Below, piece by piece: positions 2-13,839 of a stretch of DNA of 64,000 nucleotides (position 1 is the first letter of the stretch; the number at the start of each line of letters is the position of its first letter). Both the position numbers and the translations under genes were made by a program. The DNA comes from Falsiroseomonas frigidaquae. GTDB taxonomy: Bacteria > Pseudomonadota > Alphaproteobacteria > Acetobacterales > Acetobacteraceae. The notes below the pieces were generated by a model, which searched no databases, was not told where the DNA came from, and worked only from the letters and a program-made list of their open reading frames with translations. The stretch is from assembly GCF_012163145.1 (NCBI RefSeq), contig NZ_JAAVTX010000001.1:868001-932000 (forward strand), given 5' to 3'.

Positions 2-1537
2 TTCCTGGCGACCTTCGCTACAGGCGGGATGGCGCAGACGCTGAGCATCGGCGTTGGCGGCGCCTTCACCTCGATGGACCCGCACTACCACACGCTCACG
101 CCCAACAACGCACTGAACAAGCACATTTTCGACCGGCTGGTCGGTACGGATGAGGATTTCCGCCTGCGCCCCGGGCTGGCCGAATCCTGGACCTCGATCA
201 GCCCCACCGTGTGGGAGTTCAAGCTGCGGCAGGGCGTCACCTGGCACGACGGCACGCCCTTCACGGCGGAGGATGTCGTCTCGACCTTCGCGCGCGTGCC
301 GAATGTGCGGAACAGCCCGGGCAGCTTCACCATCTACACCCGCCAGGTGCAGCGGCTTGAGGTGGTGGATGACCACACCATCCGCATGCACACCGCCGCG
401 CCGAACCCGCTGGTGCCGAACTGGATGAGCGGCATCTCCATCATCAGCCGGAAGCTCGGCACGGATATCGACACCTCGGATTTCAACAACGGCCGCGCCG
501 CCATCGGCACCGGCCCCTATCGCCTGGTGTCCTACAGCCCAGGCACCGAGGCGGTGATGGAGCGCAACCCGGCCTGGTGGGGTCCGGCGCAGCCCTGGGC
601 ACGGGTGAACTACCGCATCATCGCCAATGACGCGTCGCGCATCGCGGCGCTGCGTGCGGGCGATGTGCAGGCCATCGATGCCGTCTCGACGCGGGATGTC
701 GCGACGCTGCGGGGCGATCCGAACATCCGCATCGCCAGCCGCGCCGCGCTGCGGAACATCTACCTGTATCTCGACCACCAGCGCGACGACACGCCGGGCG
801 TCTCCGGCCCGAATGGCGAAAGGCTGGAGCGCAGCCCGCTGCGGGACAATCGCGTTCGCCAGGCGCTGTCCATCGCCATCAATCGCGACGCCATCGTCAG
901 CCGCGTGATGGGCGGCTTCGCCTCACCTTCCGGGCAGTTCCTGGCGGAGGGCGTCATGGGCCACGACCCGACGCTGAAGCCGGCCAGCTACGACCCGCCG
1001 CGGGCGCAGCAATTGCTGCGCGAGGCCGGCTTCCCGAACGGCTTCCGCGTGCTGCTGGCCGGCCCCAACAACCGCTACGTGAATGATGAGCAGATCATCC
1101 AGGCGGTGGCACAGATGTGGGCGCGCATCGGCGTGCGCGCCGATGTGCAGGCGATGCCGTCCAACGTCTATTTCAGCCGTTCCGCCCGCAACGAATTCCC
1201 CATCGGCCTGTCCGGCTGGGGCACCGGCACCGGCGAGCCGGACAGCCCGATGGTGGGCCTGATCGCGACCCCGAACCGCGAACGCGGCCGCGGCACCTCC
1301 AACCGCTCGCTCTATTCCAACCCGGAATTCGACGCGCTGCTGGAACGCGCCCTGACCACCATCGACGTGGAGCAGCGGGAGGAGCTGTATCGCCAGGCGA
1401 CGCGCGTCGCCATGGCCGACCATGCCATCATCCCGCTGCACCACCAGGTGAACATCTGGGCGTCCCGCCGCAACGTCGAAGTTCTCGCGCGCAATGACGA
1501 GGAGACCTACGCGATGTCGATGAAGCCGGCGCAGTAG
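2..1537 (+). CDS. ABC transporter substrate-binding protein, family 5 (5' partial)
   Basis: Periplasmic solute receptor of the SBP_bac_5 family (dipeptide, oligopeptide and nickel type), which delivers ligand to an ABC permease. The frame is open from base 2, before the first internal ATG at 29. The residues before that ATG look like the end of a signal peptide, so the true start lies left of the window. Family features include an early 'MDPHYHTLTPNNAL' segment and the 'WHDGTPFTAEDVV' stretch typical of the first lobe. The roughly 500-residue length fits a nearly complete mature protein. The ligand cannot be read from sequence. No permease or ATPase gene follows; they may lie upstream. The last codons and the TAG stop form the first unit of a tandem repeat array. 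Confidence 0.9.
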   Translation, partial: FLATFATGGMAQTLSIGVGGAFTSMDPHYHTLTPNNALNKHIFDRLVGTDEDFRLRPGLAESWTSISPTVWEFKLRQGVTWHDGTPFTAEDVVSTFARVPNVRNSPGSFTIYTRQVQRLEVVDDHTIRMHTAAPNPLVPNWMSGISIISRKLGTDIDTSDFNNGRAAIGTGPYRLVSYSPGTEAVMERNPAWWGPAQPWARVNYRIIANDASRIAALRAGDVQAIDAVSTRDVATLRGDPNIRIASRAALRNIYLYLDHQRDDTPGVSGPNGERLERSPLRDNRVRQALSIAINRDAIVSRVMGGFASPSGQFLAEGVMGHDPTLKPASYDPPRAQQLLREAGFPNGFRVLLAGPNNRYVNDEQIIQAVAQMWARIGVRADVQAMPSNVYFSRSARNEFPIGLSGWGTGTGEPDSPMVGLIATPNRERGRGTSNRSLYSNPEFDALLERALTTIDVEQREELYRQATRVAMADHAIIPLHHQVNIWASRRNVEVLARNDEETYAMSMKPAQ

Positions 1538-1684: not shown

Positions 1685-3100
1685 TCAGAACAGCTCGAAA
1701 TACTCGCGGTGTTCCCACTCTGACACCTCGCCCTCGAAGCGCGCGATCTCGGCGCGCTTCAGCCGGGCGAAGTAGTTCACGAAGGTATCGCCGAAGGCGG
1801 CCCGCGCCGTGGTGCTCTCCTCCAGCGCCGTCACCGCTTCCGCCAGGCTGCGCGGCAGCAGCGGCGCCTCGGTCTCATAGGGCGTATCGGCGGGCGGGCC
1901 AGGGTCGCGCTGCGCGGCGATCCCTTCCAGCCCATAGGCGAGCTGCGAAGCCAGATACAGATACGGGTTGGCCGCCGGTTCGCCGACGCGATTCTCCAGC
2001 CGCGTCGCCGCATCCCCCGGCGCACCCAGCGCGCGCACCATCACGCCGCGATTGTCGATGCCCCAGATGGCGCGATCCGGCGCCAGGGAATGGCTGCGGT
2101 AGCGGCGATAGCCATTGATGGTGGGCGTGGAGAAGGCGGCCGCCGCGCCCGCATGGTGCAGCAGCCCGCCGAGGTAATGCCGCGCCGTCTGCGACAGCAG
2201 CGTGCCGTCGCCGATGAAGGCGTTGCGGCCATCCTTCACCAGCGACTGGTGCAGGTGCCAGCCGCTCGACATCACGTTCGGGATGCGCGGGCGGCACATG
2301 AAGGTGGCGTGGTAGCCATGCCGGCGCGCCACCTGCTTCACCGCGCTGCGGAACAGCACCATGGCATCGGCGCTGGCCAGGCCGGATTGCGGGCCGAAGG
2401 TGAACTCCACCTGGCTCGGCCCGTATTCCACCTCCATCGAGCGCAGCGGCAGGCCTAGCGCCTGGACCTCGCGGCGCAGCAGTTCCAGCACGATGTCGAT
2501 CTGGTCGTAGCGCAGCTCGGTCAGGTAGTTGTAGCCCTGCGTCAGCAGCGCGACCTCCGGCGGCGTGCCAGGCTGGCCCGCGTCGCTGGGCGCCAGCTTC
2601 GGGTCGGTCAGGCGGAACAGATGAAACTCCACCTCCAGTCCGGTGACGAAGTCGAAGCCCAGTTCAGCAGCCTTCGAAACCTGTTGGCGCAGCAGGTGGC
2701 GCGTATCCAGCGGCACCGGGCGGCCATCGGGGAAATAGGCGTCGCAGAGGATCCAGCCGCTATGCGGCGCCCAGGGCAGGATACGGAAGGTTGCGGGGTC
2801 CGGGATCAGCAGCGCATCCGCCGCCCCCTCCATCGCCTTCTCGCCCATCGCCCCGCCGGCGGACCAGACGGGGAAGACCGTGCGGTGGGAGGTGTCCTTC
2901 AGCAGCAGCGTGGTGGTCATCGCCACGCCATTGGCCAGCGCGGCCGCGGCATCGGCGGCCATGATGGTCTTGCCGCGCAGGATGCCGTGCTGGTCGGAGA
3001 AGGCCAGGCGCAGCACGCCGAGGCCCGCCGCCTCGATCTGCTTCAGGACATCGGCGCGCTCGGCCGCGCTGTGCAGCCCGTGACGCTCGACGAAGCTCAT
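1685..3100 (-). CDS. Glutamine synthetase-family ligase (GlnA type III / gamma-glutamyl-amide synthetase-like)
   Basis: This 471-aa protein has the GS fold. Visible features are an N-terminal 'SDQHGILRGK' motif, the 'SSGWHLHQSL' metal and substrate loop in place of the usual GSGMHxHxSL, and a 'RLENRVGEPAANPYLY' stretch matching the conserved catalytic Arg/Glu and ANPYL region. Members of this branch often join glutamate to amines (PuuA, aniline-type gamma-glutamylanilide synthases) rather than ammonia. The start at 3100 is chosen because its ATG overlaps the TGA of the upstream Rieske gene (ATGA), implying translational coupling. A ligase working with the oxygenase on an amine substrate is an inference; true glutamine synthesis is less likely in this setting. 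Confidence 0.85.
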   Translation of the reverse strand: MSFVERHGLHSAAERADVLKQIEAAGLGVLRLAFSDQHGILRGKTIMAADAAAALANGVAMTTTLLLKDTSHRTVFPVWSAGGAMGEKAMEGAADALLIPDPATFRILPWAPHSGWILCDAYFPDGRPVPLDTRHLLRQQVSKAAELGFDFVTGLEVEFHLFRLTDPKLAPSDAGQPGTPPEVALLTQGYNYLTELRYDQIDIVLELLRREVQALGLPLRSMEVEYGPSQVEFTFGPQSGLASADAMVLFRSAVKQVARRHGYHATFMCRPRIPNVMSSGWHLHQSLVKDGRNAFIGDGTLLSQTARHYLGGLLHHAGAAAAFSTPTINGYRRYRSHSLAPDRAIWGIDNRGVMVRALGAPGDAATRLENRVGEPAANPYLYLASQLAYGLEGIAAQRDPGPPADTPYETEAPLLPRSLAEAVTALEESTTARAAFGDTFVNYFARLKRAEIARFEGEVSEWEHREYFELF

Positions 3101-4422
3101 TCCGCGGCGAGCGCCGGCGGGGCCCAGGGCGCGGCGCCGCGTCGTCGCGCCACCGCGTCCCGCCAGCGGCTTTCCCATTCGGCGGTCGGCGCCATGGTGT
3201 CGATGGTGGCGGGGCCGATGATGCGGCGCGTGGCCTCCGCATCCTGCATCAGGGCCGGGGGGCGGCCTTCCTCCATCGCGGCCATGGCGCGCAGCAGCAG
3301 GCGGCGATTGGCGGCGATCGCCTTGTCGCTGCTCGCCAGATTCTCCCGCGTGCGATCCTGGATGGCGCCCTGCGATTCCACGGCCCATTGGTCGTGGACA
3401 TTGATGTCCTCGCCCATGCCCGTATAGGTCGCGGTGGCCTGCTCGTCCGGGTCGAAGCCGTAGTCGTTGTGGCGGCCGAGCTTCGGCAGGTAGTCCGGCA
3501 GGCTGTAGGATTCCAGCCGCTGCGCGCGCATCTGCGCCTTGTCCACCGGCTTGGCGAAGCTGGTGAAGATCGCGACCCAGTAGGTGTGCGTGTCATCCAC
3601 CGGCATGTGCCACTGGGTGATGGTCATTTCCGCGCTCATCGGAATGACGAAGGCCTGCGGGAAGACCAGGTTGGTGACGCGCACATGCGTCGTCGCATCG
3701 TTGATGGTCCGCAGCGCCGTCACGCGCAGGCCGTAATCGGTGTTCTCCACCTCGATCCGCGGCCGCGCATATTCGCGCAGCACATAGGTCATCGGCAGGT
3801 CGGAGCCGTCGGAGGTGGCGCGGAACTGCTTGCCGTAGGATTGGGCCGCGTCGCCATCCTCGAAGAAGCGGTGCAGGAAGCTGGCATGGGCGGGGTCGAT
3901 GCCGACCTCCAGCGCCTGCAGCCAGTTGCAGGAAATCAGGCCCTTGAAGGCGAAGACATGCGTATCCGGCGCGGTGAAGCAATCCAGCGCCGGAAAGGGC
4001 GGCGCCGCGCCCTCGCCGAGGAAGGCGAAGACGATGCCGCTGCGGATTTCCACCGGGTAGGATCGCTGGCGGATGCGCGTGCACAGCGTGCTGCCTTCCG
4101 GCTCCGCCGGCGTGTCCAGGCATTGGCCCTGCACGTCGAACAGCCAGCCATGAAAGGGGCAGCGCAGCCCGCCATCCTCCAGCCGGCCGAAGGCGAGGTC
4201 GGCGTTGCGATGCGGGCAATCCCGGTCCAGCAGGCCGAGGCGCCCGGCCTCGTCCCGGAACAGCACGAAGTCCTGGCCGAGCGCGCGCACGGCGCGCACC
4301 GGGCGCTTCGCATCAAGCTCATCCACCAGCGCGATCGGCTGCCAGTACTGGCGCAGCACACGCCCGCCCGGCGTGCCGGGCCCGACGCGCGTCAGGCGTT
4401 CATTCACTTCGGCGGAGATCAT
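3097..4422 (-). CDS. Rieske non-heme iron oxygenase, alpha subunit
   Basis: This 441-aa aromatic-ring-hydroxylating or demethylase-type oxygenase resembles the phthalate dioxygenase branch. The Rieske [2Fe-2S] ligands are visible as CPH (residues 69-71) and CPFH (88-91). The mononuclear iron site is D176, H179 and H184 in 'DPAHASFLH'. No beta subunit, ferredoxin or reductase is adjacent, so electrons must come from elsewhere. The start at 4422 begins the conserved N-terminus; an in-frame GTG upstream is possible. A promoter with a palindromic operator lies just upstream, shared in design with the divergent operon beyond the IclR gene. The gene is translationally coupled to the GS-like ligase. 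Substrate unknown. Confidence 0.9.
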   Translation of the reverse strand: MISAEVNERLTRVGPGTPGGRVLRQYWQPIALVDELDAKRPVRAVRALGQDFVLFRDEAGRLGLLDRDCPHRNADLAFGRLEDGGLRCPFHGWLFDVQGQCLDTPAEPEGSTLCTRIRQRSYPVEIRSGIVFAFLGEGAAPPFPALDCFTAPDTHVFAFKGLISCNWLQALEVGIDPAHASFLHRFFEDGDAAQSYGKQFRATSDGSDLPMTYVLREYARPRIEVENTDYGLRVTALRTINDATTHVRVTNLVFPQAFVIPMSAEMTITQWHMPVDDTHTYWVAIFTSFAKPVDKAQMRAQRLESYSLPDYLPKLGRHNDYGFDPDEQATATYTGMGEDINVHDQWAVESQGAIQDRTRENLASSDKAIAANRRLLLRAMAAMEEGRPPALMQDAEATRRIIGPATIDTMAPTAEWESRWRDAVARRRGAAPWAPPALAAE

Positions 4423-4445
4423 GGCGGCAGCAGCTCCGGCAGCAG

Positions 4446-4462
4446 TGTTCACTGACCGAACA
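4446..4462. promoter_or_regulatory. Probable IclR operator 1 (17-bp palindrome)
   Basis: The minus strand reads TGTTCGGTCAGTGAACA, an inverted repeat that extends to arms GTGTTC/GAACAC at 4445-4463. It closely matches a second palindrome at 5373-5389. It starts 9 bp downstream of the -10 hexamer of the leftward promoter, a position suited to blocking transcription. Assignment to the adjacent IclR protein is inferred. Confidence 0.75.
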
Positions 4463-4470
4463 CTTGTGCG

Positions 4471-4500
4471 ATAGTAGCGAAGGCCCAGCTTCCCGCACAA
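4471..4500 (-). promoter_or_regulatory. Promoter of the Rieske/GS-like pair
   Basis: On the minus strand there is TTGTGC (4495-4500), an 18-bp spacer and TACTAT (4471-4476), a sigma-70-like pair. The flanks CTTGTGCG (4463-4470) and CGCACAAG (4494-4501) also form an 8-bp inverted repeat around the promoter. Confidence 0.6.
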
Positions 4501-4525
4501 GCCGCAATTCAGAAGGTCCCGCACC

Positions 4526-5326
4526 ATGCCGCGCCTGAATGCCGAGGATGCGGGCCGCAGAGAAGCCGCCGGCCACGGCCCGGATTTCCTCGAGGCCCTG
4601 GCGCGAGGCCTGGCCGTTCTGCAGGCATTCGGGCCGGAGCGCCGGCAGATGACGCTGGCCGAGGTCGCGCGCGAAGTGGACCTGCCCCGCGCCACGGTGC
4701 GCCGCGCGCTGCACACGCTGGTCGTGCTCGGCCATGTGGCGGCGGAGGGCAAGCTGTTCCGCCTCACGCCCGGCGTGCTGCGGCTCGCCGCCGGCTATCT
4801 CGGCTCCAACGGCCTGTCCAACATCCTGCAGCCACGCTGCGAGAAACTCAGCGCGGAGGTCGGCGCGCCCTGTTCCGCCGCGGTGCTGGATGGGGCGGAG
4901 ATCGTCTTCATCGCCTACGGCCAGCCGGCCCGCCTGCTGAACCTGACCACCAATGTCGGCCTGCGCCTGCCCGCCTTCTGCACGGCGCTCGGCCGCGTGC
5001 TGCTGGCCGGGCTGCCGGAGGCGGAGATGGAGGCGGTGCTGGCGCGCCACCCACCCGTGGCCCTCACGCCGCAGACGGAGCTCGACCCGGCTCGCATCCG
5101 CAAGCGCATCGCCAAGGCGCGCAGCGACGGTTTTGCATTGGTGGACCAGGAGGCGGAGCAGGGTTTTCGTTCCCTTGCCGTGCCGCTGCGGCGGCATGAC
5201 GGGCGTGTGGTCGCGGCGCTCAACATCGGCATGCACACCGAACGCGGCACCGCGACTGCCCTGCGCGAAGGCTTCCTGCCGCTGCTGCGCGCACAGGCCG
5301 CCGAACTGGCGCAGCAATTGTTGTAG
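4526..5326 (+). CDS. IclR-family transcriptional regulator
   Basis: This 266-aa regulator has an N-terminal winged helix-turn-helix (about residues 22-85, 'MTLAEVAREVDLPRATVRRA') and a C-terminal IclR effector domain. It is closest in appearance to the PcaR/PobR type that controls aromatic catabolism. An AGAAGG ribosome-binding site sits about 8 bases before the ATG. The gene lies between the leftward Rieske/GS-like pair and the rightward oxidoreductase/oxoprolinase operon. Both flanking promoters carry nearly the same palindrome at the same distance from the -10 box. It is therefore the likely joint regulator of both. The ligand and sign of regulation cannot be read from sequence. Confidence 0.92.
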   Translation: MPRLNAEDAGRREAAGHGPDFLEALARGLAVLQAFGPERRQMTLAEVAREVDLPRATVRRALHTLVVLGHVAAEGKLFRLTPGVLRLAAGYLGSNGLSNILQPRCEKLSAEVGAPCSAAVLDGAEIVFIAYGQPARLLNLTTNVGLRLPAFCTALGRVLLAGLPEAEMEAVLARHPPVALTPQTELDPARIRKRIAKARSDGFALVDQEAEQGFRSLAVPLRRHDGRVVAALNIGMHTERGTATALREGFLPLLRAQAAELAQQLL

Positions 5327-5333
5327 CGCGTCG

Positions 5334-5364
5334 TTGCGCGTTGCGCGGAACGCGCGCTAGCATT
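5334..5364 (+). promoter_or_regulatory. Promoter of the amino-acid oxidoreductase operon
   Basis: TTGCGC (5334-5339), a 19-bp spacer and TAGCAT (5359-5364) form a weak sigma-70-like promoter. The -10 end is 9 bp from operator 2, exactly as in the leftward promoter. The bases between -10 and operator (CGCACA) are also shared. Confidence 0.5.
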
Positions 5365-5372
5365 CGCACAGA

Positions 5373-5389
5373 TGTTCGGTGTTCGAACA
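5373..5389. promoter_or_regulatory. Probable IclR operator 2 (17-bp palindrome)
   Basis: TGTTCGGTGTTCGAACA has perfect 6-bp arms, 7 bp if extended to 5372-5390. It shares the TGTTCGGT half-site and GAACA end with operator 1 at 4446-4462. It lies 20 bp before the start codon of the first gene of the rightward operon. Confidence 0.78.
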
Positions 5390-5409
5390 TTCGCCAGGTA
5401 GGACCCAGC

Positions 5410-6651
5410 ATGCGCATCGCGGTGATCGGCAATGGCATCGTCGGCACCGCCACCGCCGCCTGGCTGCAGCGCGATGGCCACCAGGTGATGTTCGTCGATC
5501 CGCTCGGCCCGGCGGAGGCGACCTCCTTCGGCAATGCCGGCTCGCTTTCGCCCTCCGCCTGCCTGCCGGTCGGCATGCCGGGCATGTGGAAGAAGGTGCC
5601 GGGCTGGCTGCTGGATCCGCTCGGGCCGCTCGCCGTGCGCTGGTGGTACGCGCCGGTCGCCGCGCCCTGGCTGCTGCGCTTCCTGAAGCATTCGTCGCGG
5701 GAGGAAGTGGTGCGCATCGCCACCGCATTGCGCGGGTTGCTGGCGCCGATCTTCGATTGCTACGAGCCGCTGCTGCAGCGCGCCAATGCCAGCGGGCTGA
5801 TGCGCCGCAGCGGCTGCCTCTATGTCTATTCAGGCGAGCAGGCCGCGCGGCAATGGGCCTGGGGGATGAACCTGCGCCGCTCGCTCGGCGTCGAGATGCG
5901 TGACGTGGCCGAGGATGAGCTGGTCGCATTGGAGCCCGACCTGAAGGGCCGCTTCCGCTTCGGCATATTGGCGCCGGAGAATGGCAGCACGCTCGACCCC
6001 GCCGCGATGACACGTGCGCTGTTTGAACAATGCGAACGCGACGGCGCGCAGGTGCATCGCGCGCGCGTCACCGGTTTTCGGGTGAAAGGCGGCTCCGTGC
6101 ATGCGCTGGAGTTGGAGGGTGGCGAGGCGCTGGAGGTGGAGGGTGTGGTGCTGGCCGGCGGTGCCTGGTCCGCACGCCTTGCCAACCAGCTCGGCCCGCG
6201 CATCCCGCTGGAGACGCAGCGCGGCTACCATGTGACGGTCGGCAGCAACAATTTGGCGCTGCGCCACACCGTGATGGCGGTGGAGCACAACCTCATGGTG
6301 AACCCCATGCAGATGGGGCTTCGCCTGGCAGGGTCCGTGGAATTCGCGGGCCTCAGTGCCGCGCCCGATTACCGCCGCGCCGCGATGCTGCTGGCGCGAG
6401 GCAAGGAAATGTTCCCGCATCTCGATACCAGCGTCACCAGCGAATGGATGGGCCACCGCCCCTGCCTGCCGGACAGTCTGCCGGTGATCGGCCGCGCGCC
6501 GCGCGTGGACAATGCCTGGTTCGCCTTCGGCCATGGCCATATCGGCATGTGCGGCGCCGCCAGCACGGGGCGGGAGATTGCGCATCTCGTCGCCGGGCGT
6601 GATCCGGAGATCGATCTTGCGGCCTTCGCCCCCACGCGCTGGGCCGCCTGA
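5410..6651 (+). CDS. FAD-dependent oxidoreductase (D-amino-acid dehydrogenase/DAO family)
   Basis: This 413-aa flavoenzyme begins with a dinucleotide-binding motif 'VIGNGIVGTATA' (residues 5-16), and its C-terminus has 'MGHRPCLPDSLPVIG', typical of the DadA/glycine-oxidase family. Such enzymes oxidise amino acids or secondary amines to imines and pass electrons to quinone or oxygen. The start at 5410 follows an AGGTAGGA ribosome-binding site and begins directly at the Rossmann strand. It is the first gene of a five-gene operon; the next start codon is 2 bases after its stop. Association with oxoprolinase-like genes suggests an imino or D-amino acid substrate, but this is not shown. Confidence 0.88.
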   Translation: MRIAVIGNGIVGTATAAWLQRDGHQVMFVDPLGPAEATSFGNAGSLSPSACLPVGMPGMWKKVPGWLLDPLGPLAVRWWYAPVAAPWLLRFLKHSSREEVVRIATALRGLLAPIFDCYEPLLQRANASGLMRRSGCLYVYSGEQAARQWAWGMNLRRSLGVEMRDVAEDELVALEPDLKGRFRFGILAPENGSTLDPAAMTRALFEQCERDGAQVHRARVTGFRVKGGSVHALELEGGEALEVEGVVLAGGAWSARLANQLGPRIPLETQRGYHVTVGSNNLALRHTVMAVEHNLMVNPMQMGLRLAGSVEFAGLSAAPDYRRAAMLLARGKEMFPHLDTSVTSEWMGHRPCLPDSLPVIGRAPRVDNAWFAFGHGHIGMCGAASTGREIAHLVAGRDPEIDLAAFAPTRWAA

Positions 6652-6653
6652 GC

Positions 6654-8477
6654 ATGACGCGCCGCCTGGATGTCGCGATCGATATCGGCGGTGATTTTTC
6701 CGACATCTTCGCAAGCGCGCAGGGTACGCTGCCGATCCTGCTGAAGCGCCCGAGCGACCACGCCGCGCCGCTGCGCGAGTCCGTCGCCGCGCTGCTCTCC
6801 GCCGCCGGCATCGCGGCAGGGGAGGTGGCGCGGCTGCGCCTGTCCACCACGCTGGCCACCAATGCGCTGATCAGCGGCACGGCGAGCCCGGTGGCGCTGC
6901 TCACCACGCAGGGTTTTCGCGACATCCCCGATCTCGGCCGCCAATCCAAGCGCGACCCGATGGATGAGGCGCCGCCACCGCCGACGCCGCCCTGGCTCTC
7001 CCCGCCCGATTGGCGCTGCGAGATCGCCGGCCGCATTGATGCGCACGGCGTGGAGGTGGAACCGCTCGCCGCGCTGCCTGCGCTGATCGCGACGCTGCCG
7101 CAGGGCACGCCGGTTGCCATCTGCCTGTTGTTCGCGCCGCTGAACCCGGCGCATGAGCTGGCGGTGGCGCAGGCCATCCACGCGATGCGGCCCGATCTGC
7201 GCCTGTCGCTGTCGCACCAAATCGATCCCGGGCTGCGCGAATTCGAGCGCATGCTGGCGACGCTGGCCGATGCGGCGCTGAAGCCGCTGCTGGAAACGCG
7301 CCTGACCGGCCTGCTTCCCGCGCCCTGGGTGCTGCGCGCGGAAGGCGGCCTGGCGCCGCTGGCGGATGCGCTGGCACAGCCGCTTGGCCTCGCGCTCTCC
7401 GGCCCCGCCGCCGGGGCGCGCGCCGTCGCGCATTGGGCGGCGGGCGAGGATGCGATCGGGCTCGACATGGGCAGCACCACGGCGGAGGTCAGCCTGGTGC
7501 GGGCCGGCGTGCCACTGACGGCGCGGGAGATCGGGCTCGGTTCGCTGCGGCTGCGCTGCCCGGCACTGGATGTCGAAAGCCTGGCGATGGGCGGCGGCGC
7601 GACCCTGGCCCTGCGCGGCGGCCGCATCCGCTTCGGCGCGCCATCCCGCCCCGCCTGCCGCGGCGGCGCGCAGGCCACGCTGACGGATGCCGCGCTGCTG
7701 GCCGGCTGGCTGCCCAAAGCCCTCTCGGGCCAGGTGCTGGAGCGGGATGCCGCCGCCGCCGCCCTGCGCGCGGCGCTCGGCACCACGGAGGCGACGCCGG
7801 CGCTGGAACTGGCGGAGGCGATCATCGCCGGCGCCCTGCGCCGCATCGCGCTGCGGCGGGGGCTGGACCCCACCACCGCGCTGCTGGTGGCGGGCGGCGG
7901 GGCCGGGCCGCTGCACGCCGCCGCCATCGCGCGCCGCATCGGCGCCCGGCGGCTGCTGGTACCGTCGGCGCCCGGCCTGCTCTCCGCCTTTGGCCTGGCC
8001 CTGGCGCCCGCCTCCGCGGCGCTGGAGGCGCCCTGCGACCTGGCGCTGGACGACCTACCCCACCAACAGGCCCTGGCGCAGGCCGAGGCGCTGACGGAGC
8101 GCCTCGCCGCCTGGGGCTGCGCGGCGGAGCCCCGGCACAGCCTCGCCATGGCCTATGGCGGCCAGGCGGAGACGCTGGAGGTGCCCTTCACCCCCGGCGA
8201 GCCCGCCTCCGCGCTGGCCGCGCGTTTCGACGCCGCCCATGCCGCAGCCCGCGGCCATGCGCCCGGCGGCGCGCGGCGCATCCTGGCGCTGCGCTGCGCG
8301 GCCAGCGCGCCGCTCGCCCCGCCACCGCGCCACATCGCCGCCTCCGCATGGGCGGAGCGCCATCTGCCGGATGGCACGGTGCTGCGTGATTCCGACGATT
8401 CCACCCTCCGCATCCCGCCCGGCTGGCGTCCCAGGCGGCGCGAGGATGGCGCGCTGCTGCTGGAAGACGCGTCATGA
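6654..8477 (+). CDS. hyuA: Hydantoinase/oxoprolinase subunit A (HyuA-like)
   Basis: This 607-aa ATP-dependent amidohydrolase subunit belongs to the actin/ASKHA-fold hydantoinase A and 5-oxoprolinase family. Two nucleotide-binding motifs are visible. The N-terminal one is DIGGDFSD at residues 10-17, where the family norm is DxGGTFTD; the Thr-to-Asp change is unusual. The second is LDMGSTTAE near residue 270. The protein is shorter than many HyuA proteins (about 650-700 aa). It overlaps hyuB by 4 bp (ATGA), fitting a two-subunit enzyme. 5-oxoproline, hydantoins, N-methylhydantoin and acetophenone-type substrates are all known in the family, so the substrate is open. Confidence 0.88.
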   Translation: MTRRLDVAIDIGGDFSDIFASAQGTLPILLKRPSDHAAPLRESVAALLSAAGIAAGEVARLRLSTTLATNALISGTASPVALLTTQGFRDIPDLGRQSKRDPMDEAPPPPTPPWLSPPDWRCEIAGRIDAHGVEVEPLAALPALIATLPQGTPVAICLLFAPLNPAHELAVAQAIHAMRPDLRLSLSHQIDPGLREFERMLATLADAALKPLLETRLTGLLPAPWVLRAEGGLAPLADALAQPLGLALSGPAAGARAVAHWAAGEDAIGLDMGSTTAEVSLVRAGVPLTAREIGLGSLRLRCPALDVESLAMGGGATLALRGGRIRFGAPSRPACRGGAQATLTDAALLAGWLPKALSGQVLERDAAAAALRAALGTTEATPALELAEAIIAGALRRIALRRGLDPTTALLVAGGGAGPLHAAAIARRIGARRLLVPSAPGLLSAFGLALAPASAALEAPCDLALDDLPHQQALAQAEALTERLAAWGCAAEPRHSLAMAYGGQAETLEVPFTPGEPASALAARFDAAHAAARGHAPGGARRILALRCAASAPLAPPPRHIAASAWAERHLPDGTVLRDSDDSTLRIPPGWRPRRREDGALLLEDAS

Positions 8478-10090
8478 GCCTCGCCGAGGCCGCAGCCCGG
8501 GACATCCTGCGCCTGGCGCTGGAGGGCCTGGCCGACCGCATGCAGGACAGCCTGCTGGCCAGCGCGCTGTCCCCGGTGGCGCGTGAGGGCATGGATTGCG
8601 CCGCCGCGCTGTTCCTGCCGGATGGGCGCGTGCTGGCGCAGGCACGGTCGCTGCCCCTGCTGCTCGGCGGCATGATCCCGGCCATCGCCGCCCTGGCCCG
8701 CGCCTTCCCGCCCGAAACGCTGGCCGAGGGCGACGGGCTGCTGCTGAACGATCCCTGGTCCGGCGGCACGCATCTGCCGGATCTGATCCTGGCGCGCCCG
8801 GTCTTCGCGGAAGGCGGCGTGGTGGCCTTCGCCGCCACCATCCTGCACCACCAGGATGTCGGCGGCATCGCCCCCGGCTCCGTGCCGCCGGATGCGCAAA
8901 ACATCTTCCAGGAAGGCCTGCGCCTGCCGCCCGTGAAATGGCGCCATGCGGGGGTGGAGGATGCGGGTATCGCCACCATCCTCGCCGCCAATACCCGCAC
9001 GCCCGCGATGCTGGCCGGCGACCTGGCCGCGCAATGGGCTGCCGTATCCCTGGCGGCGCGGGAGGTTTCGGTGCTCGCCACCAGCATGGGCGCGGCTTCC
9101 TTCGCGCAGGGCTGCGAGGCGCTGCTGGCGGAAGCGCGAGACACCCTGGCGCAGGCGCTGGCCGCGCTGCCGGAAGCCGAGGCCACGGCGGAGGATGCGC
9201 TGGAAGGCGACGGACGCAGCCCCGCCGCCGTGCCCATCCGCGTCACGCTGCGCCGACTGCCTGGGCCGCGGCTGGCCGTGGATTTCACCGGATCGGCGCC
9301 GCAGACGGCGGGGCCGGTGAATGCCGCGCCCTCCGGCCTGCTCGCCGCCTGCTTCTGCCTGTTGCAGCGCCTGGCGCCGGAGGCGCCTGCCAATCACGGG
9401 CTGCTCGATCTGCTGGACCTGCACCTGCCGGAGGGCAGCGTGGTGAACCCGCGCTTCCCGGCCGCGGTGAATGCGCGCACCGCCACGGTGAAGCTGGCCT
9501 GCAACGCGCTGTTCGCGGCGCTGGCGCGGCTTTCGCCGAAACCCGCCGCCGCACCCAATGCCGGGGTTGCCGTGGTGCTGTCCATCGGCGGCACGGACGC
9601 CGAGGGCCGGCGCTGGATCTTCACGGAGATCGTCGCCGGCGGGTCGGGTGGCCGGCCGGATGGGCCGGGGCAGCCGGGGCTTTCGGCCGATGTCTCCAAC
9701 GCCCGCAACCTGCCGGCCGAAATGCTGGAATCGGCCGCTCCGATCCGCGTGGAGGCCATCGAACGCCGGCGCGGCTCCGGTGGCGCCGGGTTGCATCCGG
9801 GGGGCGACGGCGTGCGGCGGATCTATCGGCTGCTGTCGGGCACGGCCGAGATCTCCTACCGCGGCGAGCGGCACCTGGCCGGCGCCCCGGGCGCGCAGGG
9901 TGGCGGCGCCGCCGCGCCCGCCACGGCACGCATCCTGCAGGCGGATGGCACGGCGCGACACTTGCCTTCGAAGGCGCGCACCACCTGGGCGGCGGGCGAC
10001 CGCTTCATCCTGGAGACCGCGGGCGGGGGCGGCTGGGGCCCCGCACAACAAGAATCCGCACAACAAGAACTGGGAGACTTGGCATCATGA
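8474..10090 (+). CDS. hyuB: Hydantoinase/oxoprolinase subunit B (HyuB-like)
   Basis: This 538-aa protein is the partner of the preceding A subunit. The family signature 'LLNDPWSGGTHLPDLILARPVF' region, split here as 'LLNDPWSGGTHLPD' and 'LILARPVF', lies near residues 92-115. The C-terminus has 'FILETAGGGGWG', the glycine-rich ending typical of HyuB. Length matches standalone B subunits. The start codon overlaps the hyuA stop, and its own stop overlaps the next start (ATGA at 10087-10090), so the three genes are translationally chained. Confidence 0.92.
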   Translation: MSLAEAAARDILRLALEGLADRMQDSLLASALSPVAREGMDCAAALFLPDGRVLAQARSLPLLLGGMIPAIAALARAFPPETLAEGDGLLLNDPWSGGTHLPDLILARPVFAEGGVVAFAATILHHQDVGGIAPGSVPPDAQNIFQEGLRLPPVKWRHAGVEDAGIATILAANTRTPAMLAGDLAAQWAAVSLAAREVSVLATSMGAASFAQGCEALLAEARDTLAQALAALPEAEATAEDALEGDGRSPAAVPIRVTLRRLPGPRLAVDFTGSAPQTAGPVNAAPSGLLAACFCLLQRLAPEAPANHGLLDLLDLHLPEGSVVNPRFPAAVNARTATVKLACNALFAALARLSPKPAAAPNAGVAVVLSIGGTDAEGRRWIFTEIVAGGSGGRPDGPGQPGLSADVSNARNLPAEMLESAAPIRVEAIERRRGSGGAGLHPGGDGVRRIYRLLSGTAEISYRGERHLAGAPGAQGGGAAAPATARILQADGTARHLPSKARTTWAAGDRFILETAGGGGWGPAQQESAQQELGDLAS

Positions 10091-11055
10091 CCCTCACCCG
10101 ACGCAGCCTCGGCGCCGTCCTGGGCGCCGCGCTGGCGACACCCGCACTCGGACAAAGCTGGCCGAGCCGCACCATCCGCATCGTCGTGCCCTTCCCACCC
10201 GGCGGCAGCACGGACACGCTGGCGCGGCGCCTGGCGGAGAAGCTGACGGCCGCCCTCGGCCAGACCGTGGTGGTGGAGAACCGCCCCGGCGCCGGCGGCA
10301 CGGTGGGCGCCGACATGGTGGCGAAATCCCCGCCGGATGGGCATACGCTGCTGATGGGCGTCACCGGCAGCAATGCCATCGCCGGCAGCCTGTTCCGCAC
10401 CCTGCCCTATGATCCCGCCAATGCCTTCGCGCCGCTGTCGCGCGTGGTCTCCGCGCCGCTGATCCTGGTGGTGAACAAGGACCAGCCGATCCAGGACCTG
10501 GCGGGCTATATCGCCGCGGCCAAGGCGGCGAATGGCGGGCTGACCTATGCGACGCCGGGCAACGGCACCTCGATGCACCTGACCGGCGTGATGTTCGGCC
10601 AGGCCGCGAAAGTGGAGCTGACGCATGTGCCCTATCGCGGCTCCGCCGCGGCGCTGACGGACCTGGTCGGCGGCCAGGTGCAGTCCAGCTTCGCCGATTT
10701 CCTGGTGGCGCTGCCGCAGGTGCGGGCCGGGGCGCTGCGGGCCCTCGCGGTCACCTCCCCGGCCCGCCACCCGCTGCTGCCGCAGGTGCCGACGATGGAC
10801 GAGGCCGGGCTGCCGGGCTTCGCCGCCACCTCCTGGCAGGGGTTGTTCGCCCCCGCCGGCACCCCGGCGCCGATCATGGCCCGGCTGCATGCGGAAGTGG
10901 CCCGCGCCATGACGGCGCCAGAGATCAAGGACAGCTTCGCCGCCCAGGGCTTCACCGTGGAGGCCACCACCCCCGCGGAATTCGACGCCTTCGTCCGGGC
11001 GGAGGTGGCGAAATGGGCCGTGGTGGTGCGCGAGGGCCGCATCTCCCTGGATTGA
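10087..11055 (+). CDS. Tripartite tricarboxylate transporter receptor (Bug/TctC family)
   Basis: This 322-aa periplasmic receptor has a signal peptide 'MTLTRRSLGAVLGAALATPALGQ' that can be split as residues 1-15 and 16-23, and mature sequence beginning 'WPSRTIRIVVPFPPGGSTD', the hallmark of Bug proteins. These bind carboxylates or amino-acid-like compounds. Most are orphans, and no TctA/TctB membrane genes are in this window. Its position in the IclR-controlled operon suggests it captures the pathway substrate. The start overlaps the hyuB stop. Confidence 0.93.
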   Translation: MTLTRRSLGAVLGAALATPALGQSWPSRTIRIVVPFPPGGSTDTLARRLAEKLTAALGQTVVVENRPGAGGTVGADMVAKSPPDGHTLLMGVTGSNAIAGSLFRTLPYDPANAFAPLSRVVSAPLILVVNKDQPIQDLAGYIAAAKAANGGLTYATPGNGTSMHLTGVMFGQAAKVELTHVPYRGSAAALTDLVGGQVQSSFADFLVALPQVRAGALRALAVTSPARHPLLPQVPTMDEAGLPGFAATSWQGLFAPAGTPAPIMARLHAEVARAMTAPEIKDSFAAQGFTVEATTPAEFDAFVRAEVAKWAVVVREGRISLD

Positions 11056-11121
11056 CCCACCCCGCTTGACGCATCCGGGGCTGGAGCGTTCGCTGCCAGC
11101 CCCATCCGCATGAGGATCGCC

Positions 11122-12087
11122 ATGGACGCCGCCCAAAACCTGCCGATCATCGACCTCGGCGCCCTGGGCACGGCGGAGGGCGATGCCGCCATCGCGCGGG
11201 CGCTGGATGCGGCCTTCGGCGGCATCGGCTTCGCCTATTTCGCCAATACGCCGATCAGCCCGGCGCAGCAGGCGGCGATCTTCGCAGCCTCCCGCCGCTT
11301 CCACGCGCTGCCGGATGCGGCGAAGCGCGCGATCGACATGAACGGCTTCCACCGCGGCTACATGGCGCCGAAGACCAGCGTCATCCAGACATCCTCGGTT
11401 GCCCGCGTCACCAAGCCCAACTTCTCCGAATCCTTCATGTTCATGCATGAGGTGGCGGAAGATGACCCGCGCTTCGGCATGCCCCTGCAGGGGCCGAACC
11501 AGTGGCCGGCGGAGCTGCCCGGGTTCCGGGCGGAGGTTCTGGCCTACCAGGCGGCGATGGAAGACTTCTGCCGCCGCCTGCTGCGCCCGATCGCGCTGGC
11601 GCTGAACCTGCCGCCCGACTTCCTGCTGCCCTTCTTCGAAAAGCCCACCACCTTCCTGCGCCTGCTGCACTACCCGCCGCAGCCGCCGGATGCGGCGGAG
11701 GATGAATTCGGCTCCGCCCCGCATACCGACTACGGCTTCATCACCGTGCTGCTGCAGGACATGTCGGGCGGGCTGGAGGTGCGGCGCGCCGATGGCATGT
11801 GGCTGCGCGCCACGCCGATCCCCGGCAGCTTCGTGGTGAATGTGGGCGACATGCTGGCGCGCTGGACCAATGGGCGCTGGCAATCCACGCCGCACCGGGT
11901 GAAGAACCTGTCGGGCGGGGATCGCTATTCCTGCCCCTATTTCTTCGACATGGACATGGCGAGCGAGGTGGCCTGCCTGCCGAGCTGCACCAGCGCCGCC
12001 AATCCGGCGAAGCACCCACCCGTGCTATACGGCGACTACCTGCTGGAACGGCTGAACAAGAACTATTCCTACCGCCGCCAGGCCTGA
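11122..12087 (+). CDS. 2-oxoglutarate/Fe(II)-dependent oxygenase (isopenicillin N synthase-like)
   Basis: This 321-aa double-stranded beta-helix oxygenase has iron ligands H201, D203 ('APHTDYGF') and H258 ('STPHRVKN'). The 2-oxoglutarate-binding pair R268 and S270 lies in 'DRYS'. The N-terminus 'LPIIDLGAL' is the usual DIOX_N start. I place the start at 11122, since GAGG lies 6 bases before it; an in-frame ATG at 11110 would add 4 residues. It is 66 bp after the receptor gene and probably the last gene of the operon. Its stop directly abuts the stop of the convergent permease gene, with no bases between them. Substrate unknown; hydroxylation or demethylation are the usual reactions. Confidence 0.9.
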   Translation: MDAAQNLPIIDLGALGTAEGDAAIARALDAAFGGIGFAYFANTPISPAQQAAIFAASRRFHALPDAAKRAIDMNGFHRGYMAPKTSVIQTSSVARVTKPNFSESFMFMHEVAEDDPRFGMPLQGPNQWPAELPGFRAEVLAYQAAMEDFCRRLLRPIALALNLPPDFLLPFFEKPTTFLRLLHYPPQPPDAAEDEFGSAPHTDYGFITVLLQDMSGGLEVRRADGMWLRATPIPGSFVVNVGDMLARWTNGRWQSTPHRVKNLSGGDRYSCPYFFDMDMASEVACLPSCTSAANPAKHPPVLYGDYLLERLNKNYSYRRQA

Positions 12088-12951
12088 TCAGCCGGCCAGA
12101 TGCGGCCGCCGGACCCAGCGCGCCAGCAGCCCATCCACCGGCCCGAACACCACGGACACTGCCCAGGCCACCCCCGCCGTCAGCACGATGGCGGGGCCGG
12201 AGGGCAGGTCGAGGTGGTAGCTCGCCAGCAGCCCGAACAGCGCGGAGAGCATCGCCAGCCCCACGGCGGCATAGGCCATGCCGGACAATTCCCGCCCCCA
12301 ATGCCGCGCCGCGACGGCGGGCAGCATCATCAGCCCCACCGCCATCAGCGTGCCCATGGCCTGGAAGGCGGCCAGCACGTTCAGCACCACCAGCACCAGG
12401 AACAGCCCGTGCCACAGCCCGCCGCGCACGCCCTCCGCCGCGGCGAAGCCCGGGTCGAAGCATTCCAGCGCCAGCGGCCGCCAGGCCAGCGCCAGCACCG
12501 GCAGGGTCAGCGTGGCGACGCCCGCCATCAGCAGCAGCGCCGGATCATCCACCCCCAGCACCTGGCCGAACAGCAGATGCGTGAGGTCCGAGGTATCACC
12601 GCGCAGCGACACCAGCGTCACGCCGAGCGCCAGCGCGATCAGGTACAGCGCGGTCAGCGCCGCATCCTCCCGCCCCCCCGTGGCACGGGACAGCGCCCCG
12701 GCACCCACCGCCACGGCCAGCCCGGCGATCAGCCCGCCGAGCGACATGGCCGGCACCGAAAGCCCCGCGATCAGGAAGCCCGCCGCGATGCCTGGCGTCA
12801 CGCCATGCGCCAGCACCTCCGCGGTCAACGAGGTCCGTCGCAGCATCAGGAACACGCCGAGCAGCGGCGCCGCCACGGCCAGCGCCAGGCAGCCGACCAA
12901 GGCGCGGCGCATGAAGCCGAATTCGAGGAAGGGGCCGAACAGCCAGTCCAT
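12088..12951 (-). CDS. znuB: Metal ABC transporter permease (ZnuB-like)
   Basis: This 287-aa integral membrane protein of the ABC-3 family has about eight hydrophobic helices and exports or imports divalent metal, in this family usually Zn2+, Mn2+ or Fe2+ uptake. Typical features are 'LMLRRTSLTAEVLAHGVTPG' near the N-terminus and 'QAMGTLMAVGLMMLPA' in the second half. The ATG at 12951 is chosen; a GTG at 12987 is an alternative, and neither has a strong ribosome-binding site. It follows the ATPase gene by 120 bp. No znuA-type binding protein is adjacent, which is unusual for this transporter class. Confidence 0.88.
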   Translation of the reverse strand: MDWLFGPFLEFGFMRRALVGCLALAVAAPLLGVFLMLRRTSLTAEVLAHGVTPGIAAGFLIAGLSVPAMSLGGLIAGLAVAVGAGALSRATGGREDAALTALYLIALALGVTLVSLRGDTSDLTHLLFGQVLGVDDPALLLMAGVATLTLPVLALAWRPLALECFDPGFAAAEGVRGGLWHGLFLVLVVLNVLAAFQAMGTLMAVGLMMLPAVAARHWGRELSGMAYAAVGLAMLSALFGLLASYHLDLPSGPAIVLTAGVAWAVSVVFGPVDGLLARWVRRPHLAG

Positions 12952-12955
12952 GGCG

Positions 12956-13075
12956 TTAAGCCCGCGGCCGCGAACGCGGCCCGCCACTTATGCTGCGAAG
13001 CCAAAGAAACCGGAGGTTTCCGCCCGGCGCATGAGGGGGGCCGGAGCGGTCACGCGACGGAACCATCGCCGTCAT
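12956..13075 (-). CDS. Possible 39-aa spacer reading frame in the metal transporter operon
   Basis: A short frame starts with an ATG overlapping the ATPase stop (ATGA at 13072-13075) and ends with TAA 4 bases before the permease ATG. The fit is neat enough to suggest a translated linker that carries ribosomes across the 120-bp gap. Composition is arginine, glycine and proline rich with no recognisable domain, so it may be chance. The interval also contains a perfect hairpin (13006-13020, GAAACC/GGTTTC). Confidence 0.25.
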   Translation of the reverse strand: MTAMVPSRDRSGPPHAPGGNLRFLWLRSISGGPRSRPRA

Positions 13076-13839
13076 GCCGCGCAGGCGGGGGCGATCTCGT
13101 CCCAGGCCTCGGCCATCATGCGGGCGCGCAGGCGGTTGGCGGCGGACAGCACCTCGGCGGTCGGACCGCAGGCAATCGCCTCCCGCGCCAGCAGCAGGCA
13201 GTCGGGGAATTCGCGCTGCACCAGGTCCAGGTCGTGCAGCACGGCCAGCACGGTGCGGCCCTCGCCATGCCAGCGGCGCAGCACGGCCAGAAGATCGGCG
13301 GCGGTGCGCGCATCCACCGCGTTGAACGGCTCGTCCAGCAGGATCAGGTCGGCGTCCTGCACCAGCAGCCGGGCGAAGAGCAGCCGCTGGAACTGGCCGG
13401 CGGACATGGCGCCGACCGGCCGCTTCGCGAAACCGCCCAGCCCCACCGCCTCCAGCGCCTGCTGCGCCCGGTCCCGGTCCGCCGCGCTGGTGCCGCGGAA
13501 GGCGCCGAGGCGCGACCACATGCCCTGCAGCACCACATCCAGGCAAAGGATCGGGAAGGCGCGGTCCATGCCGGATTGCTGCGGCAGCAGCGCCACGCGC
13601 GGCTTCTGGCCCGTCAGCGTCACCCGCCCCTCATCCACCCGGTGCAGCCCGGCGATCGCCCGCAGCAGCGTGGTCTTGCCGGCGCCGTTCGGGCCGACGA
13701 TCGCCGCCAGCGACCCGGCGGCGAAGCGCGCGGAGACGTGATGCACCGCCGGATGGCGCTGATGCGTCGCCGTGAGGTTGGCAAGTTCCACCGCCGGCCC
13801 ACGCCGCGCCACCGGCTTTTCCGCCATCGCCCGCATCAT
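13072..13839 (-). CDS. znuC: Metal ABC transporter ATP-binding protein (ZnuC-like)
   Basis: This 255-aa ATPase has Walker A 'GPNGAGKTT' (residues 49-57), signature 'MSAGQFQRLLFARLL' and Walker B 'LILLDEPFNAVD'. It powers the adjacent ABC-3 permease. The start at 13839 is supported by an ATGA overlap with the stop of the 44-aa membrane peptide gene just upstream. Zinc is favoured over manganese or iron because of the Zur-like box upstream, but the metal is inferred. Confidence 0.9.
   Translation of the reverse strand: MMRAMAEKPVARRGPAVELANLTATHQRHPAVHHVSARFAAGSLAAIVGPNGAGKTTLLRAIAGLHRVDEGRVTLTGQKPRVALLPQQSGMDRAFPILCLDVVLQGMWSRLGAFRGTSAADRDRAQQALEAVGLGGFAKRPVGAMSAGQFQRLLFARLLVQDADLILLDEPFNAVDARTAADLLAVLRRWHGEGRTVLAVLHDLDLVQREFPDCLLLAREAIACGPTAEVLSAANRLRARMMAEAWDEIAPACAA

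Follow-up and report, generated by a model that had tools for sequence, protein, structure and literature searches.

A conserved Rieske oxygenase and glutamine synthetase-like ligase pair as a probable upper pathway for aminobenzoate in Falsiroseomonas frigidaquae

Introduction

What is the substrate of a Rieske oxygenase whose gene directly adjoins that of a glutamine synthetase-like ligase, and what links the two to a neighbouring operon with an oxidoreductase and a hydantoinase/oxoprolinase? This question is raised by a locus in the alphaproteobacterium Falsiroseomonas frigidaquae (Acetobacteraceae), which occupies positions 1685–12087 of a 64,000-nucleotide stretch of its 6.08-Mb genome, hereafter called the window. 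We propose that the Rieske oxygenase (RO) and the glutamine synthetase-like ligase (GS) probably act as an upper pathway that converts an aminobenzoate, most probably the 4-isomer, to protocatechuate by way of glutamylation. With ATP, the ligase would join the gamma-carboxyl group of L-glutamate to the aromatic amine, giving gamma-glutamyl-aminobenzoate. The oxygenase would then add both atoms of O2 at the amine-bearing carbon and the neighbouring carbon, after which the ring would re-aromatise to a diol and the nitrogen would leave as glutamine. For 4-aminobenzoate the diol would be 3,4-dihydroxybenzoate (protocatechuate), which would enter the beta-ketoadipate pathway.

Similar chemistry is known from the 1-naphthylamine and aniline systems (NpaA1-A5, AtdA1-A5, TdnQ/DcaQ), in which an aromatic amine first receives a gamma-glutamyl group from a ligase and is then, as the conjugate, oxidised by a Rieske dioxygenase. 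The accessible part of one source describes gamma-glutamylation for aniline only (PMC4539516), and the accessible part of another states, without a mechanism, that a route from 4-aminobenzoate to 3-oxoadipate exists in Ralstonia strains (PMC10470067). A report on a nitrobenzoate degrader presents pnbA, pnbB and pnbR and mentions no ligase (PMC9302171). A glutamylation route for aminobenzoate was not found among the open-licence papers listed; subscription papers were mostly outside this search, so such a route may be in print. 4-Aminobenzoate is a building block of folate. The degradation of 4-nitrobenzoate by the nitroreductase PnbA and the 4-hydroxylaminobenzoate lyase PnbB also ends in protocatechuate.

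The ligase resembles aromatic-amine gamma-glutamylases

The GS gene (1685–3100, minus strand; PF00120, E 1.7e-83) encodes a predicted gamma-glutamyl-amine ligase of the GoaS type. We preferred a 471-aa form of the protein because its start coincides with the stop of the Rieske gene; the 567-aa form in the list of open reading frames (ORFs) was rejected, as its upstream start falls within that gene. In rankings of solved structures, which covered PDB entries only (Foldseek included), the closest match to the ligase was NpaA1 (8wwu; E 1.5e-130, 439 bits), and the next reached 8.3e-59 and 203 bits. The protein has the GS catalytic fold and is nearer to the proven GoaS than to GlnA. Against the curated models for GlnA, type III GS and gamma-glutamylputrescine synthetase it stays below cut-off, and a plain glutamine synthetase was rejected for this reason. 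Judged by these comparisons, the ligase resembles the aromatic-amine gamma-glutamylases.

The loop at the amine entrance is altered. In NpaA1 the segment V68-M81 lines this entrance and is hydrophobic, whereas its counterpart in the window, TTTLLLKDTSHRT, contains the cationic stretch KDTSHRT. Lysine stands at the position of NpaA1 F75 in 93 of 99 aligned ligases and in 19 of 20 further ones, and in 89 of the 99 a His-Arg or His-Lys pair comes after it in the loop. The six ligases without this lysine are the four from our aniline-type comparison loci (L097, L116, L119, L121) and two from actinobacteria (L118, L120). By alignment, the three aromatic residues of the NpaA1 amine tunnel (F75, F86, W235) correspond to Lys, Trp and Phe in the window ligase, so that the first is no longer aromatic and the other two still are. 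Because F75 is replaced by Lys, we filed the ligase as GoaS-like and not as an aniline-type enzyme; in the source paper the aromatic tunnel is a substrate feature and does not define the GoaS class. A cationic amine entrance would suit a carboxylated amine, and the charge of the loop is a candidate substrate switch. When 47 ligases were placed in a quick tree with the four aniline-type sequences as root, the remaining 43 fell on one side of a branch with an SH-aLRT support of 99.

The oxygenase is of the phthalate dioxygenase type

The RO gene (3097–4422, minus strand) encodes a 441-aa oxygenase of the phthalate-dioxygenase type with a LigXa_C-type catalytic domain (PF19301, E 5.3e-28). Among 87 aligned oxygenases, the Rieske ligands C69, H71, C88 and H91 are present in 86 and the iron ligands D176, H179 and H184 in all. 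Arg248 is likewise kept in 87 of 87, and its counterpart in phthalate and isophthalate dioxygenase binds the ring carboxylate, according to the accessible part of PMC12445078. The protein resembles these two enzymes. Phthalate and isophthalate dioxygenase (PDO and IPDO) of Comamonas testosteroni KF1 act directly on dicarboxylates with a separate reductase, whereas the window-type oxygenase nearly always adjoins a ligase.

The original prediction had compared the pair with aniline-type degradation, where the amine is first glutamylated. The pairing is supported, and the oxygenase in it belongs to the phthalate-dioxygenase type rather than to the alpha/beta dioxygenases of the aniline systems. 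The window ligase shares 50.2% identity with the pNB8c enzyme and 43.7% with that of JS3066, which is encoded on the NpaA1 plasmid. In contrast to the aniline systems, the window cluster combines GS with one oxygenase subunit from another Rieske family and has neither a beta subunit nor a glutamine amidotransferase nor a reductase; membership of the aniline-type systems was rejected on this basis. The loops also differ, cationic here and hydrophobic there, and an IclR gene takes the place of the LysR gene found beside the pNB8c cluster. By gene content the cluster is therefore not an aniline dioxygenase system, but by analogy it may work like one.

The pair is conserved, and its relatives point to protocatechuate

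The original prediction had suggested comparing the neighbourhoods of the two genes across the family as a check, and there the pair was indeed kept. RO and GS were found in the same 12 of 150 genomes of the family, and they are adjacent in 78 of 80 ligase relatives, both misses being contig ends. These 80 genome loci are the best 80 of at least 547 ligase relatives; the closest named relatives at the locus, among the matches listed, are Falsiroseomonas and Roseomonas. In addition, 18 of 47 plasmid matches were fetched and loci from 20 of 30 ligase-positive genomes of the class were read, two of which (L132 and L133) had been picked because PcaH was already seen nearby. One further set comprised ten stretches, with two each from genomes G003 and G059 and one being the pca locus of the window's own genome.

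Protocatechuate genes lie beside or near the pair in several relatives. In L132, RO and GS are directly followed by pcaH, pcaG, an ORF similar to pcaB and a fused pcaDC. The products of pcaH, pcaG and pcaDC score above the respective curated cut-offs, and the pcaB-like ORF is only 37% identical to an annotated PcaB and has no family match. In L133 the order pcaC-pcaH-pcaG lies about 6 kb before RO. These are two of the 30 ligase-positive genomes of the class. Among the 80 genome loci, pcaHG lies within 10 kb in four (L040, L050, L058, L073), all from Afipia and hence one lineage, and among the 18 plasmid loci in one, L117, whose ligase is 50.8% identical and in whose stretch a window-type RO was not found. 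Across 385 genomes of the class (ligase threshold E ≤ 1e-140, both searches taken as the same draw), PcaH exceeds its cut-off in 21 of 30 genomes with the ligase and in 51 of 355 without it; these are raw counts that ignore kinship and genome size. The window's own genome also encodes a PcaH homologue above the curated cut-off, elsewhere than in the locus.

A second set of clues comes from 4-nitrobenzoate degradation. On Methylobacterium and Burkholderiales plasmids, RO-GS occurs together with ferredoxin, reductase, aromatic-acid transporter and 4-nitrobenzoate genes, including PnbB and nitroreductase. The 18 plasmid loci hold PnbB in five cases, nitroreductase in five, the aromatic-acid transporter in five, and ferredoxin together with reductase in nine; PnbB also follows RO-GS in L141. 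The 4-nitrobenzoate route itself uses neither an oxygenase nor glutamylation, and the window cluster contains none of its genes. In L090 a gene for glutaminase lies about 6 kb away from GS; it would fit the release of glutamine, which we expect as co-product by reasoning from the aniline system. Four lines, namely the pca gene string, the pnb plasmids, the co-occurrence with PcaH and the cationic ligase loop, agree in suggesting a route from aminobenzoate to protocatechuate.

Several observations weigh against this proposal. Genes of the pca and pnb sets and genes for a ferredoxin or reductase are absent from the window cluster, and the ferredoxin reductase of relatives, used as query against the window's genome (E 1e-20), gave no match; this search had no positive control. 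Amidotransferase queries matched none of the 80 genome loci. No pca or pnb marker was found in the 19 Acetobacterales loci (L008-L025, L053), so the substrate for the window's own lineage is carried over from distant relatives. Nine of the 30 ligase-positive genomes have no PcaH above the cut-off, and in four of the 20 class loci read (L137, L138, L144, L151) RO was not found next to the ligase. In the oxygenase, R207 of PDO aligns to Leu209 and H257 of IPDO to Gln270. A second carboxylate-binding residue is thus not kept and, because the other pocket residues differ, the argument for a carboxylate comes down to one arginine, Arg248, which may be general to the oxygenase family. Furthermore, in many of the loci L026-L087, mostly from Bradyrhizobium, RO-GS lies between benzoyl-CoA (box) genes and not pca genes, 3-aminobenzoate could likewise yield protocatechuate, and the proposed route has no place for the oxidoreductase and hydantoinase genes of the second operon. 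Alongside a Liv-type importer, the box-type loci also encode a benzoate-CoA ligase and a regulator of the benzoate type; a BadA-like match was recorded in 41 and BoxC in 33 of 107 scanned loci.

These points bear on whether RO-GS acts by similar glutamylation and dioxygenation on another aromatic amine, such as 3-aminobenzoate, anthranilate, an aminosalicylate or an aminophenyl acid. The change in the ligase loop argues merely for an anionic amine, and both the shared product of 3-aminobenzoate and the box genes around the pair in so many Bradyrhizobium loci would suit such a substrate. However, the RO-GS-pca gene string indicates protocatechuate, and the 4-isomer is favoured because PnbB and nitroreductase lie near RO-GS in several lineages. 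We therefore consider another amine fairly unlikely and retain 4-aminobenzoate as the preferred substrate.

Both units share a predicted IclR operator

The pair is divergent from a gene for an IclR-family regulator (4526–5326, plus strand), which precedes the second operon. This regulator passes the model of the PcaR/PcaU/PobR subfamily narrowly (TIGR02431, 287.0 bits against a cut-off of 284.75). A palindromic operator core, TGTTCGGTNNNNGAACA, occurs in exactly two copies in the 6.08-Mb genome, where about 0.03 would be expected from base composition. One lies upstream of the Rieske gene (4446–4462, minus strand; TGTTCGGTCAGTGAACA) and the other upstream of the second operon, which begins with a DAO-family gene (5373–5389, plus strand; TGTTCGGTGTTCGAACA). 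When two mismatches were allowed, the pattern had 22 genome matches against 28 for a reversed control. Since the relaxed pattern is no commoner than the control, only the exact sites are informative, and weaker sites elsewhere carry no meaning. With their flanks included, the two modules are identical in 27 of 37 aligned columns. The original prediction had called them almost identical; a shared module does exist, and its copies are similar only. No match to a sigma-70-like promoter was found at 4300–5500.

The site upstream of RO is maintained in relatives. At least nine of ten half-site letters are present there in 55 of 75 relatives with a scorable RO start; the corresponding share was 0.34% for 3,823 random stretches and 0.25% for 1,221 other gene starts. 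The operator upstream of RO is not due to chance. The site also tracks the regulator, being carried by 54 of 66 loci with an IclR match versus one of nine without. Upstream of DAO, a site with nine of ten letters was found in all four relatives in which DAO heads its own unit beside IclR (L008-L011). It was found neither in the remaining five named DAO loci (L012, L014, L016, L017, L021) nor in L124 and L125 nor in the unlinked DAO cassettes L122 and L123. Because the site precedes DAO in L008-L011 and not in the other DAO loci, the co-regulation would apply to this genus and is not universal. Within the genus, joint control of the RO-GS and DAO units by one IclR, as had been predicted, is well supported by the shared operator, which the regulator would bind. 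Like the PcaR/PcaU/PobR regulators, this IclR passes TIGR02431 and has a palindromic operator; its predicted targets differ, being RO-GS and the DAO operon instead of pca or pob genes.

The DAO-HyuAB operon is a lineage-specific neighbour

The second operon runs on the plus strand and starts with a FAD-dependent amino-acid/amine oxidoreductase of the DAO family (5410–6651; PF01266, E 1e-56). It is followed by HyuA (6654–8477, 607 aa; PF01968 and PF05378) and HyuB (8474–10090; PF02538, E 2e-141), the alpha and beta parts of a hydantoinase/oxoprolinase with domains of the 5-oxoprolinase type. The next ORF (10087–11055) overlaps HyuB and bears the name of a TctC/Bug-type periplasmic receptor given by the original prediction; it has no NCBIfam match, a Pfam search of it was not made, and homologues follow DAO or HyuB in relatives. 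A 2-oxoglutarate Fe(II) oxygenase (11122–12087; PF03171 and PF14226) is loosely attached: its relatives in L009 and L012 are at 89% and 39%, respectively, and L010 has none. The predicted genes and their order on both sides of a single IclR gene were thus borne out by gene calling and family searches, with the length of the ligase corrected.

At E ≤ 1e-130, DAO was found in eight of the 150 genomes of the family, all among the 12 with RO-GS (hypergeometric 9e-11), and the predicted link between oxidoreductase and pair holds here. In two of the eight (G003, G059) DAO lies on another contig than RO-GS. The arrangement varies. L012 has one string of RO-GS, a transporter and DAO-HyuA-HyuB-TctC; L021 has RO-GS-DAO and then HyuA up to the contig end; in L124 and L125 the genes after RO-GS encode, in this order, a binding protein, DAO, TctC, HyuA, HyuB and TctC; and in L014, L016 and L017 TctC follows DAO without HyuAB. 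HyuA lies beside DAO in six of the nine named DAO loci and HyuB in three, with three loci ending there at a contig end, and HyuAB lies near DAO in all four further DAO loci read (L122-L125). A strict HyuB search found only two of the 150 family genomes; it undercounts because the HyuAB of L122-L125 are more divergent, 35–50% identical to the nearest HyuAB among the reference loci. Outside the family (DAO relatives at E ≤ 1e-100), only five of 33 class genomes with DAO relatives have the ligase. Twelve contexts of such relatives (41–52% identity), several of them short, gave no hint of a substrate, and HyuAB was near DAO in L152 only. DAO itself reaches no curated cut-off, and its closest solved relatives are glycine oxidases with weak scores. 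An AlphaFold model of DAO, with a mean pLDDT of 47.7, lacked the quality needed for a fold search and was set aside. We conclude from these gene arrangements that DAO, often with HyuAB, is a putative lineage-specific partner of the pathway. The two form a linked accessory module, which would, as a guess, act on an imported nitrogen-containing carboxylate that feeds or accompanies the aminobenzoate.

How the two units belong together can be read in other ways. In the original prediction both served a single pathway: after glutamylation and oxidation of an amine, the glutamyl group returns as 5-oxoproline, to be opened by HyuAB. The family membership of HyuAB, the operator it has in common with RO-GS and its frequent place near DAO would fit. 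However, dioxygenation should release glutamine by analogy with the aniline system, and with glutamine as the predicted co-product the route does not require a 5-oxoproline step. The identified genes, which were not searched for a gamma-glutamylcyclotransferase by name, did not appear to include one. Against the curated models HyuAB gave only matches below cut-off, to caprolactamase and acetophenone carboxylase, and no oxoprolinase model was listed; HyuA (158.7 bits) and HyuB (163.7 bits) remain far under the 1000-bit cut-off of the closest, caprolactamase. Moreover, HyuA was matched in six and HyuB in three of the 80 RO-GS loci, some of which are cut by contig ends. Recovery via 5-oxoproline is hence not supported and appears very improbable; salvage of pyroglutamate from decaying conjugates is a possible form of the idea that the data do not demand.

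DAO-HyuAB-TctC might instead be an independent catabolic operon of the hydantoin or lactam type that shares nothing but the regulator, which would be compatible with aminobenzoate as the substrate of RO-GS. The two genomes with an operator-free DAO cassette on another contig and the DAO relatives outside the family, which do not track the ligase, agree with this, whereas the confinement of all eight family DAO genomes to the 12 with RO-GS and the single gene strings of L012, L124 and L125 speak for a closer tie. We regard such independence as possible, if somewhat doubtful. A quite unlikely further option is that the Acetobacterales use RO-GS, DAO and HyuAB together, as a single pathway, on a larger natural aminobenzoate compound, for example a folate-derived or N-substituted one. 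DAO would cleave or oxidise the N-substituent, HyuAB would open a cyclic amide of what remains and RO-GS would consume the freed aminobenzoate; such a pathway would amount to a dedicated, IclR-controlled route for the salvage of folate fragments.

If RO-GS does convert aminobenzoate, glutamate capping of amines would not be confined to industrial anilines on plasmids and would exist in a widely kept version, directed at a folate precursor that is also a product of nitrobenzoate reduction. In Bradyrhizobium, Methylobacterium, Burkholderiales and Acetobacterales, a role would be gained by many genes annotated only as 'glutamine synthetase family protein' or 'aromatic ring-hydroxylating dioxygenase', and two different Rieske families would have been recruited to glutamylation-dependent oxidation. 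The charge of the ligase loop would offer a testable substrate switch.

Neighbouring genes and further loci

Directly after the 2-oxoglutarate oxygenase, the window has an ABC-3 type transporter permease and an ABC ATPase gene (12088–13827, minus strand). A family-5 binding protein is next after GS in the window (29–1537) and in L008. A NitT/NMT1-type ABC importer follows GS in 18 of the 80 loci (L009-L020, L022-L025, L053, L060), not including the window or L008; a search of the window's genome for the NMT1-type binding protein of relatives, run with no positive control, was empty.

Some relatives of the ligase stand in other surroundings. In L144 (9105–12054, genome G333) a cationic-loop ligase without RO has a 35% identical DAO relative divergently adjacent. 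On the plasmids of L120 (Rhodococcus) and L118 (Streptomyces), GS-like ligases of 46–48% identity have genes for amidase, amidotransferase or carbon-nitrogen hydrolase as neighbours. The annotation of these stretches includes no Rieske gene, and the ligases perhaps belong to other glutamylation pathways. Another possible member of the pathway is a small protein encoded close to RO-GS or GS in several distant lineages (L040, L050, L058, L073, L090, L115, L117, L136); its annotation in L090 and L115 is 5-carboxymethyl-2-hydroxymuconate isomerase. Finally, in L013 (2–7784), L015, L024 and L053 a one-module NRPS-like gene and two cytochrome P450 genes directly precede IclR-RO-GS, and a radical SAM gene follows the transporter; in the latter three loci the assignment was made by clustering and length. 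The NRPS-like protein of L013, the one for which Pfam domains were determined, contains condensation, AMP-binding, carrier, thioesterase and methyltransferase domains, and these genes may represent a small-molecule cluster adjoining the catabolic genes.

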